From positions 1 through 21,129 of IMG/VR virus record IMGVR_UViG_3300028388_004266: a stretch of DNA of 21,129 bases, one strand, 5' to 3'. The notes under the pieces are model-generated. The model saw only the letters and a program-made list of their open reading frames with translations. It was not told where the DNA came from and searched no databases. The number at the start of each line of letters is the position of its first letter. Position 1 is the first letter of the stretch. Source of the stretch: a virus. Of the stretch, positions 1,652 through 11,039 are shown piece after piece. Both the position numbers and the translations under genes were made by a program.

Positions 1652-4600
1652 GTGTCCAGCCTGGAATTTGCCGGTGACAATGGTTCGCTGAGCGACATTA
1701 ACGCAACTCAAGGTGAGTTTCGCAGTCAGATCGCGGCCTTGACCGACATGGTCAAGCAGATTGCTGGTAATGCTGCCGTTTCCGCTGGCGACTCTGCACA
1801 GGCTGATCCTCTTAACGCCCCATTTACTCTTTACGTCAACCCCTATACCGGCAGTGATGAGTTTGTCGGTGGATCGTATAACGACTACGAAACCGGCGCG
1901 ACGCAGCAAGAAATTATTGAATCGAAGCTTAAGCGCCTTGAAAAGCAGCGCCTGACTTGCGGTTTCACGCCGCAGCGTCCGTTCAAGACGATCAACCGCG
2001 CTGTCATTGAAGCGGCGATCATCACCAGCAAGGACTGGTACACGATTACTGATCCTGCCGCACATGTGGACTGCGTGAGCATCGTGCTCAGCACTGGTGT
2101 TCACACGCTTTACAACGACCCTGGGCAAGCCAGCACCAGCATCGCAAGCTGGGGCGCATCCAAGAATCCGAGTACGGCTGATCTGATCAAGTTCAACCCT
2201 GCCACGGTTGGCGGTGTGCTGCTGCCTCGTGGTTGTTCGCTGTGCGGACCTGACCTTCGCAAAACCACGATCCGCCCCAACTGGGTGCCCGCTGTTGCTG
2301 ACGAAGCGGCAGATTACAGCAACCGTCGCGGGATGCTGAAGATCACCGGAACCGGCTACTTCTTTGGCTTTACGGTGATGGACAAGATTGGCCTTGAAGC
2401 CAGTCACCATCTGCTGGATGCGTTCCAGTTTGCCAGCAAAGCAGAGCTTGATGATTTCTACGCCAAAACGTTCAGCGCTGTGGGATCTGGCGCGGACTTG
2501 GCTTCCGCTCTAACCGTCACACGCGGCACCGAATACCAGATCGTTGGTCCGATTGATCAGACGCAATCGCCCACCAGCGCTTGGGATACGACCAGCAGCG
2601 CTTCGCCGTACATCTTCAACTGCTCCATCCGATCCAACTACGGCATCGGTGGTGCGTTCATGGACGGCTCCAAGGTCGAGGGCCTGAAGTCAATGGTCTG
2701 CGCCAACTACACCGGCGTCAGCCTGCAGAAAGATATGAGCTGCTGGCAGATTTATGACGGCAGCAACTGGGTGCAGCCGACCTATGAGCAATACATCAAC
2801 GCTGACCCTGATAACACACGGATGAACCCGGCGCGGCTAAGTCGCCACATCTGCGCCATCAACGACGCCTTCATCCAGGAGGTGTCCGTTTTTGCCATCG
2901 GTCAAGGCATTCACCACTTCACCGACCTCGGTGGTGAAATCACTGTCACCAACAGCAACAGCTCGTTTGGTGGTTGCGCTGCGTACAGCAAAGGCTACAA
3001 AGGCACAGCATTCCCGAGCGACACAAACTGGGCAGTCAGCGGTATCCGTGTGCCGCTCGATCTGCAAGAAAAAACTGGCAACATCCGAACGATCTATCTC
3101 GGCACGATTGATTCGGCTACGAGTAGCAAGATCACCCTGACATCACCGCTTGCAGCGGATACCTCGTCTGACAGTATCCCGGCTGTTTTGCTGGAAGATG
3201 GATACACACTCGCCAGCGGCACCTACATCTGGGCTGAAAATCCGCTTGGTGAACCATGGTACGCACCTCTTGCGTCTAACGCTTGGGACGCAAGCGCACC
3301 AGATGAAATTGATATCAGCAGCGCTTTTGATGGCGCTGACGACACGATTGAGGAGGGTGTCAGCCTGCTCCCAGGGAAGCGTGTTTACATCCGTCGCTTG
3401 GTTGATACACGCACTCCAAACGAACGCCGGATTTCGGTTCTTGCTAACAACACCGCATCAGCTCGGTTGCCGCAGCGTAACTTTATTATCCAAACAGATC
3501 CGTTGCGAACCAACGGTGCCATCAGCCGTGAATTCACAACAACCGGCACCGAAATTTTTGCTGTTAGCAACGCTGGCGCGGGGAATGAGGCTGGCGTAAC
3601 GACCTCAACAGAATTCACCCTGCGGCGCTCTGCGCCGAGCACGGCATACAGCAACGGCGACTTCTATACCGCAGGAACAGTTGTCCGCAGCGGCGGCAAG
3701 CACTACATTGCCACGCGCGATATTTATACAACAACGGCATCACCGGATCCTGCATCATGGCTCGAAACCTTTGTTCACACGGCATCGGATTACGACGCTG
3801 AGGACCCTATCACGCAAGAAGCGCGGCAGATCATTATTGACACAGACACCGACACTGATGCCTACAGCACAGATCTTGGCATTAACTGGTCCAGCGTCTG
3901 GGCTGATGATGAGTACCGCAGCTCAACTGACTACAAAGGTGTTCACGCATTCTTGGTTGCATTGGGCTTGACCAGCAATCAAGCTCATGCTGCACTGGTC
4001 CCGCAAGCTGCTTCTGATCGGCTGCTGGATCCTACCAGCGCAACAGATTTCCCGAACGCACCAGCAGGTGGAGCGGCGACCGGACGTGGCAACTGGGCTA
4101 TTGAGTTCCGCCGCCCGAGCACACTGCGCCTTTATGGCCACGCCTGGGAATGGGCTGGTTTCCTGAACTACTCAAAGGCCATTCCAGCGGCGCAAAAAGA
4201 CCTTGGTCCGCAGAACGCCTTCACTTACTACTTCACCAACGAAGCAGGTGGCCGCGTCGTGCCGCAAGGCAGCAACGAAAACGGATTCAACATCACACCA
4301 CGCGGTCTCGAAGACATCGAGACTGGTTCAACGCTAACTGTCGAAAACATCGGCAGCAGCTCGATTGACATTATCGCTCAAACAGAATTTGAAAATCTCA
4401 GCGTTACTGATACGTTAACCACAGAAAACCTTAATATAACTGGCTCGATTAGCGGCTTGCCAACTGTAGGCTCAGCAACAACAGGCAATACCGATGATGA
4501 CCTAGGTTTTGTTCGTTTGGCTAGCATCTCGGACTTAGAAAGCACCTCTCTCGCGTCCACTGATGCTGCGATCGAACAATCACCTGAAGTTGTCACATAC

Positions 4601-8788: not shown

Positions 8789-9121
8789 ATGACACTCGGA
8801 CTCAAATCTGGCTATGAGGTTGCTGATCTTGGCAGCCTCACTGAGGCGGGTGTCACCGACTCTCAGGTCACTACTGGGCTGAACCTTGCGTTTCAGGTTA
8901 CTGTCGCAAGCGTCGGAACAAGCGTGACGATCCGACTCGAAGGCAGCGTTGATGATGAAAATTATTTCAATCTTGACGAAAGCGAGACTGACACAACGTT
9001 GACCGCAAACGGGACTTATGGGTATGCGCTGAATGGCTGCCCAGTCAAGCATGTTCGCCTTCGCGTTGTGAGCATCGATGGCGGCTCCCCAACCGTGAGC
9101 GCTAAAGTCGGCTCAATGTAA
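8789..9121 (+). CDS. small beta-sandwich-like phage structural protein (110 aa)
   Basis: The 110-aa protein consists of alternating beta strands: FQVTVASVGTSVTIRLEGSVD, then a YFNLD motif, then TLTANGTYGYAL, then VKHVRLRVVS, ending in VSAKVGSM. This looks like small virion proteins with a single carbohydrate-binding-like or decoration-type beta-sandwich. I recognise the fold pattern rather than a named family. There are no membrane segments or catalytic residues. ATG 8789 follows a weak purine stretch (AAAGAG), and the stop shares a base with the next start (TAATG). Confidence 0.65.
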   Translation: MTLGLKSGYEVADLGSLTEAGVTDSQVTTGLNLAFQVTVASVGTSVTIRLEGSVDDENYFNLDESETDTTLTANGTYGYALNGCPVKHVRLRVVSIDGGSPTVSAKVGSM

Positions 9122-9261
9122 TGAAAAATTTACGAACCAGTATCAACACCGGAATCCGCAGCAGCGTTGCTGGCGGCCTTGCGCTGCTTGTGATCTTGGC
9201 GTCTCAGCAGGATGAAAAGCTAATGACCCAAGCGGGCAGATTCATTGTCTTGAATCGATAA
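9121..9261 (+). CDS. 46-aa single-pass membrane protein, lysis region
   Basis: This short gene starts at an ATG that shares a base with the previous stop (TAATG), so it is probably translated by coupling. The N-terminus is basic (MKNLRTSINTGIRSS), followed by one hydrophobic segment (about residues 16-28, VAGGLALLVILAS) and a polar tail ending RFIVLNR. Size, topology and place ahead of the lysin are compatible with a small holin or holin partner, but no family match can be claimed. Its stop overlaps the second GATAAAATA motif. Confidence 0.55.
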   Translation: MKNLRTSINTGIRSSVAGGLALLVILASQQDEKLMTQAGRFIVLNR

Positions 9262-9291: not shown

Positions 9292-9537
9292 GTGATCGAA
9301 ATCTACGCCGCGATCCTTGGTGCCTCGATCGGCATTGCTGGCATGTCGGTATCGGGCTTCACCAAACGCACCAGCGAGTCGCGCGAAGCTGTGATTCGCC
9401 TCACCGCAGCAGTCGAATCGATCGCTGGCAAGCTGGAAGAGCTGCATCAAGACATGAAAGCAGACCGCAAAGAAATTTACACTCGTCTTAACGCACACGG
9501 CGAAAGGATTACTGTCCTAGAAAACCAACAGCGCTAG
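9292..9537 (+). CDS. membrane-anchored coiled-coil protein (81 aa), possible holin/spanin-type
   Basis: Residues about 3-23 form one hydrophobic segment (IYAAILGASIGIAGMSVSGF). The rest is a charged helix with heptad spacing (IRLTAAVESIAGKLEELHQ, then IYTRLNAHGERITVLENQ), predicting a coiled coil. The lack of a lipobox argues against a classical spanin subunit. Small phage lysis-cassette proteins with one membrane helix and a coiled coil are common, often annotated as holin-like, but the more familiar XhlA layout has its membrane helix at the C-terminus. The neighbours support a lysis role; the precise function is inferred. Confidence 0.65.
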   Translation: MIEIYAAILGASIGIAGMSVSGFTKRTSESREAVIRLTAAVESIAGKLEELHQDMKADRKEIYTRLNAHGERITVLENQQR

Positions 9538-9563: not shown

Positions 9564-9713
9564 ATGCACCTCGAAGAAATTCTGGCCAGCCCGATCACCT
9601 GGATCGTTGTGGCTGCTGCATCTGAAATCATTGCCCTCTCACCGGCTAAGGACAACAGCGTGATCCAGCTTGTGTTTCACGTTCTCCGCACGCTGAAATC
9701 AAAAAAGGGCTGA
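9564..9713 (+). CDS. 49-aa membrane protein, holin-like, with slippery 3' end
   Basis: The protein begins MHLEEILASPITWIVVAAASE, with a hydrophobic helix at about residues 10-25, then a second amphipathic helix (VIQLVFHVLRTL) and a basic tail (KSKKG). Small cyanophage proteins with an ASEIIAL core like this are, to my recollection, often called putative holins. Codons 46-48 read TCA AAA AAG, containing the heptamer A AAA AAG, just before the GGC TGA end. A -1 shift there would extend the protein to 127 aa, so the short and long forms may both exist. Confidence 0.6.
   Translation: MHLEEILASPITWIVVAAASEIIALSPAKDNSVIQLVFHVLRTLKSKKG
9701..9707 (+). promoter_or_regulatory. candidate -1 programmed frameshift site A AAA AAG
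   Basis: The heptamer is phased exactly as the classical slippery site (zero frame TCA AAA AAG) and lies two codons before the zero-frame stop TGA (9711-9713). The -1 frame then stays open to 9946. Confidence 0.55.
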
Positions 9714-9946
9714 TCCCTGCTGATGGCCGCTGGCTATGGCGGTTTGACACGCGGTCACCGCTGCAGGATCTGCAGCGTGCGATCCAGCGCCGCAAGTTCG
9801 ACGCCACGCTGAAGCCACGGCTCGATGCTGAGATCAAAGACTGGCACGCGGCCCAGCCACCGATAACACCGCCGCCAGTGCGGCTTGATGACCTACACAT
9901 CCGTGCTCCTTGGTTCGATGAACGCGACACCGATCCGACTGATTGA
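9707..9946 (+). CDS. open frame without a start codon, probable -1 frameshift extension
   Basis: The frame is open from 9650 to the TGA at 9944-9946 but has no ATG, GTG or TTG before the protein-like part, which starts at GLIPADGRWLWRFDTRS. The only canonical start inside it is a GTG near the end. The sequence looks like a soluble cytosolic domain: a Trp/Arg-rich start, an amphipathic helix (PLQDLQRAIQRRKFDATL), a Pro-rich stretch and an acidic end (FDERDTDPTD). Translation by -1 slippage from the 49-aa gene gives 127 aa in total. Alternatives are a CTG start at 9710 reinitiating at the TGA, or an assembly error in the A6 run. The last 29 nt overlap the lysin gene. Confidence 0.5.
   Translation, partial: GLIPADGRWLWRFDTRSPLQDLQRAIQRRKFDATLKPRLDAEIKDWHAAQPPITPPPVRLDDLHIRAPWFDERDTDPTD
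9759..9777 (+). other. stem-loop downstream of the slippery site
   Basis: CGCTGCA (9759-9765) and TGCAGCG (9771-9777) form a perfect 7-bp stem with a 5-nt loop. It lies about 51 nt after the heptamer, farther than the usual 5-9 nt, so it could help only as part of a larger fold. A weaker GU-containing stem (GGCCGC with GCGGTT) lies closer, at about 9725-9744. Confidence 0.35.
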
Positions 9947-11039
9947 CCTATTCAAGTACTACAAGCGGTTGGGGCATCAAGATGCCGCGATCATTGAATT
10001 GGAGCAGCGGCTATTAAAGGCAGACCCGACAATCTTGAATAGGGATCAAGACTGGTACAGCACCTGGTCATCGGCTGTCGAGGCGCCTGCCAGTTATGAC
10101 AACGATTGGAACGGCATCATGGCTGCCGCTGCGGTTGCTGGGGCCAAATTCCCCGAGGTGGTCGCAGCACAATGGGCGCTTGAGTCTGGCTGGGGAAAGC
10201 ACGTCTCAGGCCAACACAACTACTTCGGCCTCAAGGGATCCGGCACATCCACGATCACACGCGAGTTCCTGGATGGGCAGTGGGTCACGATCACCGATAG
10301 TTTTATCGATTTCCCGTCACTTGCTGCTTGCGTCGAGTATCTCGTCTCGCGGTGGTATCAAGATTATCAGCAGCACCATGGCGTCAACCGCGCTGATGAT
10401 CGCAACGAATGCGCTCGGCTGCTCGTCAGCGAAGGCTATGCGACCGATCCTGCCTATGCGACCAAGCTGATCGCAATCATGGATTCGCAGCTCGGCAAAC
10501 CGGGCGAACGCATCCTTAATGTCCCGTATGAGTATCAGCTTGATAACGCATCAGGCGCCGGATACCGCGAATGCTTCAGCAGCACCTGCGCGATGATCGC
10601 TGGCTATTACGGCCAGGTTGACTCGGATGATGAGTACAACATCATCCGCGCTCGATTCGGCGATACCACTAACCCGCAAGCGCAAGTCAAAGCATTGCGT
10701 TCGCTTGGCTTTGATGCCAGGTTCCGCACCGATTGCTCGATCGCAACGCTTGAAGCTGAGATCAACGCTGGGCGACCTGTTGCTGTTGGCTGGTTGCATC
10801 ATGGCCCGATCACTGCGCCACGTGGTGGCGGGCACTGGACCTGCGTGATCGGTTACACCGAAGACACGATCGTTCACAACGATCCCAACGGCGAAGCCGA
10901 TATGGTCAACGGCGGCTACATCGGCAACTCAGCATCGTTGGGCGCTCGCATTGAATACAGCCGTAAAAATTGGCAAAGGCGCTGGGAAGTCGATGGTCCG
11001 AGCACTGGTTGGGCTATTCTGGTAAAGCCTGAATTTTGA
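9918..11039 (+). CDS. two-domain endolysin: glucosaminidase plus C39-like peptidase
   Basis: This is probably the enzyme that cuts host peptidoglycan. Residues 1-40 are an N-terminal segment (TPIRLIDLFKYYK). Residues about 60-190 match the glucosaminidase fold (WALESGWGKH with likely catalytic Glu89; NYFGLKG; FPSLAACVEYLVSRWY). Residues about 205-373 look like a C39-family papain-like peptidase, with Cys219 (ECFSSTC), His306 (GGGHWTCVIGY) and Asp322 (HNDPNG) as the likely triad. The fusion would attack both glycan and peptide links. I chose ATG 9918 because IRLIDLFKYYK looks like a conserved start; TTG 9885 and ATG 9888 would only add residues in the overlap. No signal peptide is seen, so export would need a holin from the upstream small membrane genes. 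Confidence 0.85.
   Translation: MNATPIRLIDLFKYYKRLGHQDAAIIELEQRLLKADPTILNRDQDWYSTWSSAVEAPASYDNDWNGIMAAAAVAGAKFPEVVAAQWALESGWGKHVSGQHNYFGLKGSGTSTITREFLDGQWVTITDSFIDFPSLAACVEYLVSRWYQDYQQHHGVNRADDRNECARLLVSEGYATDPAYATKLIAIMDSQLGKPGERILNVPYEYQLDNASGAGYRECFSSTCAMIAGYYGQVDSDDEYNIIRARFGDTTNPQAQVKALRSLGFDARFRTDCSIATLEAEINAGRPVAVGWLHHGPITAPRGGGHWTCVIGYTEDTIVHNDPNGEADMVNGGYIGNSASLGARIEYSRKNWQRRWEVDGPSTGWAILVKPEF

Follow-up and report, generated by a model that had tools for sequence, protein, structure and literature searches.

The virus record IMGVR_UViG_3300028388_004266 carries a 49-aa membrane-protein gene that ends on a candidate ribosomal slippery site and is followed by a long open −1 frame, which raises the question of whether one start codon here gives rise to two proteins. 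The analyzed DNA, hereafter the window, is the whole stretch of 21,129 bases (positions 1 to 21,129 of the record), and its sequence is similar to those of Synechococcus phages.

Organization of the locus

The features of the locus are given in Table 1. The 49-aa gene is located between the genes encoding the 81-aa TM/coiled-coil protein and the endolysin. Its product has an acidic N terminus (charge on the N side −2), a TM segment at residues 6–24 (Kyte–Doolittle value 1.86) and a Lys-rich C terminus; this charge distribution predicts an N-out/C-in orientation, and the extension described below is predicted to be cytoplasmic. The protein matches PHROG 22542, a family of unknown function. Two more small membrane-protein ORFs lie directly upstream. 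The nearer one, that of the 81-aa protein, shows only weak similarity with the hemolysin/XhlA and Rz-like families, and the other (9121–9261) encodes a 46-aa single-TM protein for which no family match was found.

Table 1. Features in and around the 49-aa gene (coordinates of the window).
Feature	Coordinates	Strand	Basis or remark
81-aa protein, N-terminal TM and coiled-coil-like, PHROG 26178 (unknown)	9292..9537	+	profile match
Zero-frame ORF, 49 aa, ATG start, one TM	9564..9713	+	raw sequence, homologues
Slippery heptamer A AAA AAG in zero-frame phase, TC[A AAA AAG] GGC TGA	9701..9707	+	raw sequence
Zero-frame stop TGA, 3 nt 3' of the heptamer	9711..9713	+	raw sequence
−1 frame extension, 79 codons and stop	9707..9946	+	raw sequence, alignment, predicted structure
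Long trans-frame product of 127 aa (48 + 79), predicted	9564..9946	+	raw sequence and comparison
Perfect 8-bp hairpin	about 9759..9777	+	starts about 52 nt 3' of the heptamer
Endolysin (Glucosaminidase and peptidase C39-like)	9918..11039	+	domain match, ORF list

At its 3' end, the 49-aa ORF reads TCA AAA AAG GGC TGA, and the phase of the heptamer is that of a tandem slip (X XXY YYZ). No stop interrupts the −1 frame between 9650 and its TGA at 9944–9946; ATG, GTG and TTG are absent from the upstream stop through extension codon 57, and the first of them is the GTG at codon 58. The first-pass annotation had described the correctly phased heptamer, an open −1 frame lacking a start codon ahead of it and a slip product of 127 aa, and all three were confirmed in the raw sequence. 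The extension has the sequence GLIPADGRWLWRFD...DDLHIRAPWFDERDTDPTD and consists of a linker, one long helix and a C-terminal hairpin motif, DDLHIRAPW. The lysin most likely starts with the ATG at 9918 and thereby shares 29 nt with the −1 frame.

Distribution among phages

Searches with the −1 frame protein retrieved 46 viral contigs and then, in two wider searches, 80 and 80, these sets partly overlapping. The relatives were taken both from contigs of IMG/VR and from Synechococcus phages in culture. After 143 non-redundant loci had been collected, three located at contig edges and one (L202), in which a different short gene carries A AAG GGC, were left out, and 139 loci were counted. The gene is widespread among phages of picocyanobacteria, with hosts from both oceans and lakes, and usually lies just 5' of the endolysin gene and overlaps it. 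The arrangement is present in the isolates S-CBS1, KBS-S-2A, S-CBS3 and S-EIVI and in the podoviruses 7B11-B and S-B28. A profile search of the C CCA AAG type found no homologues in bacterial genome contigs.

Annotators of the deposited isolates either left the extension out or entered it as a truncated separate gene. The loci gp22/gp23 of S-CBS1, CPKG_00007 of KBS-S-2A and gp21/gp22 of S-CBS3 have the same gene, heptamer and extension as the locus in the window, whereas in the deposits they appear as hypothetical genes that are separate or in part missing, and no frameshift is annotated for them. Related TM genes of S-CBS4, P60, S-SRP01, MedDCM-OCT-S37, S-CRES1 and one microvirus have neither the heptamer nor the extension; these frameshift-free genes were used as negative contrasts, some of the matches being weak. 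In the genome of Microviridae SD_MC_44 (L218) from a sea squirt gut, an unannotated ORF at about 1500–1640 matches the short membrane protein weakly (E 4e-4) and is devoid of the heptamer.

Conservation of the slippery heptamer

The heptamer is A AAA AAG in 85 of the 139 loci, C CCA AAG in 48, G GGA AAG in 5 and C CCA AAA in 1. The first three types, named in a review as highly shift-prone in E. coli (PMC5009743), are found in phase in 138/139 loci, with the stop 0, 3 or 6 nt further on. As a control, the remaining ORF ends of these contigs were analyzed, and a strong heptamer was present at 9 of 11,259. The bases of the heptamer are fixed beyond amino-acid demand: Ala preceding Lys-Lys is always encoded by GCA (38/38; GCA accounts for 27% of the Ala codons of these contigs), Ser at the heptamer by TCA (9/9, versus 16% of Ser codons) and Gly by GGA (9/9, versus 17% of Gly codons), and the sequence F-P-K is encoded by TTC CCA AAG/A in all 49 cases.

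According to a tree of 132 proteins, the heptamer type was switched at least eight times, six of the switches being forced by well-supported branches; this count is approximate, since each locus was labelled by a single rule and heptamers overlap in a few of the loci (TTCCCAAAAAAG). For example, L038 carries G GGA AAG and its sister L008 carries A AAA AAG. In L174 and L176, a second A AAA AAG is located at the extension's own end, just ahead of its stop (about 4256–4262), which may be due to chance.

Several loci depart from the common arrangement. In L266 and L270, the extension is lost and the gene ends with GCA AAG AAA TGA, overlapping the lysin ATG, so that Lys-Lys is kept and the heptamer is gone; these two loci are near relatives, and the loss may represent a single event. 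In L271, a stop is located within the extension and the strong heptamer is lost too. An exception is L039, in which the heptamer is kept but the −1 frame meets a TAG almost at once.

The extension as a protein

Purifying selection acts on the −1 frame. In 55 aligned loci, this frame had a median dN/dS of 0.14 over the first 52 codons, compared with 1.6 and 2.7 for the two others, and variation falls at the third positions of the −1 frame. 3D modeling of the extension in the AlphaFold2 program shows a long helix (18–48) and a short C-terminal hairpin; conclusions on the fold are restricted to secondary structure (mean pLDDT 77.7, pTM 0.41). The sequence and fold searches of the PDB found no match for the extension. 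Relatives in Pfam, PHROG, NCBIfam or PDB likewise assign it no function: there is no Pfam model and PHROG matches are marginal at most, so annotation has overlooked a conserved protein domain.

The C-terminal motif persists in loci with a deleted helix (L263, L275) and in phages with a replaced middle part of the extension (S-EIVI, S-CBS3 and the podoviruses). In addition, a motif resembling the ends of podovirus extensions, FGEDGWSIS[IL], terminates stand-alone ATG-started proteins of about 72–130 aa. These are encoded in many marine viral contigs and in cyanophages, T4-like ones among them (L328–L397, P-RSP2 L398, S-SSM4 L399), near tail or recombination genes and beside genes unrelated to lysis. 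The motif is possibly a shared binding tag for some partner.

Taken together, the slippery site, a −1 frame under coding selection and the concurrent loss of heptamer and extension indicate that the gene is almost certainly decoded by programmed −1 ribosomal frameshifting, which very probably yields two isoforms, short and long, of the membrane protein. The comparison of homologues, a check suggested in the first-pass annotation, strongly supports its proposal of such a frameshift, the heptamer and −1 frame both being kept; its description of a short/long membrane-protein pair adjoining a lysin is also supported.

Mechanism of decoding and stimulatory elements

From this pattern, we infer tandem tRNA slippage on the heptamer. 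Most ribosomes would stop at the TGA at 9711 and release the 49-aa membrane anchor, and a fraction would undergo a tandem backward slip of one base on the A AAA AAG heptamer and produce the 127-aa protein, i.e., the same anchor joined to a cytosolic linker, the long helix and the C-terminal hairpin motif. One tRNA-Lys gene was found in each of 7/7 Synechococcus-clade genomes, all with the UUU anticodon, using a pattern that allowed UUU or CUU and could overlook a divergent CUU gene. Slipping on A_AAG is favoured when the sole tRNA-Lys has the UUU anticodon.

As for stimulators, the stem-loop reported downstream in the first-pass annotation does exist as a perfect 8-bp hairpin, but it is not conserved among homologues and is therefore unlikely to be the stimulator. 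A Shine–Dalgarno-like element was below the level of shuffled sequence in the A AAA AAG group and slightly above it in the C CCA AAG group (44% vs 30% under −5 kcal/mol), which is not convincing. No conserved downstream structure was found (RNAalifold −1.58 kcal/mol, little covariation). A stimulatory element is common in −1 frameshifts but not required by definition. Since no Shine–Dalgarno-like element or RNA structure is conserved, the efficiency of frameshifting may be modest, and the ratio of short to long form would be set by the heptamer and the nearby stop, without a strong RNA stimulator.

Alternative explanations

The extension might be a separate gene translated without frameshifting, either from an internal start or by termination-reinitiation at a CTG overlapping the TGA (CTGA). 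The stop is indeed overlapped by CTG in 103/139 loci and by TTG in 12, and the annotated start of S-CBS1 gp23 is a TTG within the extension. However, 24 loci have NTA, which is not a start, at the stop, so that CTG reinitiation is not universal, and the window has CTA at the position of the S-CBS1 TTG. A start codon at or before the heptamer is absent in 119/139 loci and an ATG at or near the start in 136/139, and homologues with a separate ATG-started gene, which the first-pass annotation had named as contrary evidence, do not occur in the gene family. Because this explanation also leaves the conserved heptamer, its swaps among shift-prone types and its loss together with the extension unaccounted for, it appears very unlikely. 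Two further explanations concern the A6 run of the window. Runs of A can make RNA polymerase slip, and transcripts longer or shorter by one base would then encode the long protein; A6 is short for such slippage, however, and in 54 loci the heptamer is C CCA AAG, C CCA AAA or G GGA AAG, mostly without a long homopolymer, which makes transcriptional slippage highly improbable. Homopolymers are also prone to indel errors in sequencing or assembly, which could make an ordinary fused gene look like two frames, and in L283 an in-frame fusion follows an upstream one-base difference. Against such an artefact, 138/139 loci are alike, including separately sequenced cultured phages and heptamers other than A runs; it has next to no probability and was rejected in practice. 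The first-pass annotation had allowed for seven As in a plain fused gene, which is very unlikely since cultured phages sequenced separately and more than 130 contigs share the arrangement with the same or a different slippery heptamer.

Frameshifting may also be real and chiefly serve to deliver ribosomes to the overlapping lysin start, the long protein being a by-product. In most loci, there is an overlap between the extension stop and the lysin start, the commonest offset being 26 nt, and in the RNA phage MS2 the lysis gene has been linked to frameshifting in the coat gene (PMC10885494). Strong selection at the amino acid level along the extension argues against this explanation, as does the fact that in some phages no lysin follows, and it is considered unlikely. 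The long form could, alternatively, be an inner-membrane spanin-like protein with a periplasmic extension rather than a cytosolic regulator. A TM segment with a long helix in the lysis region is consistent with this, and a Gram-negative host requires disruption of the outer membrane. Nevertheless, the predicted N-out/C-in orientation is opposite to that of Rz-like i-spanins, which are N-in/C-out with a periplasmic coiled coil and a lipoprotein partner, and no lipoprotein partner was seen among the listed ORFs; a spanin-like protein is considered unlikely.

Possible role in lysis

The gene adjoins the endolysin gene in the window and in most loci, the phages 7B11-B, S-B28 and S-EIVI being different in this respect. 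Judging from this genomic context, the gene probably encodes a product of the lysis region with some role in lysis; the timing device put forward in the first-pass annotation is a hypothetical function. A purely lysis-bound role is disfavoured by the location of the gene away from the lysin in the podoviruses and S-EIVI and by the occurrence of the C-terminal motif beside non-lysis genes. As expected of a holin, the short protein is small and contains a TM segment. Its comparison with named holin families gave no Pfam or NCBIfam match, and its PHROG matches are of unknown function.

In the reading we prefer, which we only infer, the short form would be a holin-like membrane protein acting in lysis, and a minority long form would modify it through the cytosolic domain, either as a brake resembling an antiholin or as a subunit that binds a partner. 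A holin/antiholin pair or a lysin-tethering isoform specifically is suggested tentatively. In addition, coupling to lysin translation is possible, since the −1 frame overlaps the lysin start and frameshifted ribosomes could reach it. In L043 (5001–5969), the −1 frame runs in frame into the lysin, and frameshifting there would give a membrane-anchored endolysin. The endolysins of L045, L043 and the window (9918–11039) have one conserved N-terminal module (PIRLIDLFKYYK..) and differ in their downstream domains, which are Glucosaminidase and C39 in the window and lysozyme-like in L043 and L045 (by eye from the sequence).

Comparison with known systems and significance

The E. coli dnaX gene and the IS3-family transposases using A_AAA_AAG resemble the cyanophage gene in the heptamer, the tandem-slip phase and the formation of two products from one start. 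In dnaX, there are an upstream Shine–Dalgarno-like element and a downstream hairpin, and the shift yields the shorter product, whereas the cyanophage gene has no conserved stimulators and its shift would yield the longer one. The tail-assembly chaperone G/GT of phage lambda is likewise a case of conserved −1 frameshifting in dsDNA phages with variable heptamers and an added C-terminal domain, but it belongs to the tail region, whereas the cyanophage gene encodes a membrane protein in the lysis region. The dual-start holin/antiholin genes of lambda (S105/S107) and phage 21 are similar in that one small gene adjoining the lysin gives two membrane isoforms. In those phages, the isoforms differ at the N terminus owing to two starts, whereas here the difference is C-terminal with predicted frameshifting, and the holin function is putative. 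The gene order is also similar to the PBSX-type cassette xhlA-xhlB-endolysin (TM/coiled-coil protein, small TM protein, endolysin), although the profile similarity of the 81-aa protein with hemolysin families is weak; we know of no frameshift in xhlB.

In the literature searched, which mostly lay outside subscription papers, no earlier report of frameshifting in a cyanophage, holin or antiholin context was found, and the KBS2A genome paper does not mention it. With this finding, −1 frameshifting in tailed phages gains another widespread use in addition to that in tail chaperones; the gene concerned had no annotation, and the phages that carry it are very abundant in aquatic environments. Little is known about the lysis proteins of cyanophages; KBS-S-2A, which grows on Synechococcus WH7803, and S-CBS1 are named cultured systems, and in either of them the role of the isoform ratio could be tested by one silent mutation. 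A lysis switch of dsDNA phages in which a short holin and a long antiholin or lysin-tethering isoform are balanced by a naked heptamer alone is a possible, still doubtful, interpretation. If true, such a switch would be used across siphoviruses and podoviruses of picocyanobacteria, which perform much of the photosynthesis in the ocean.
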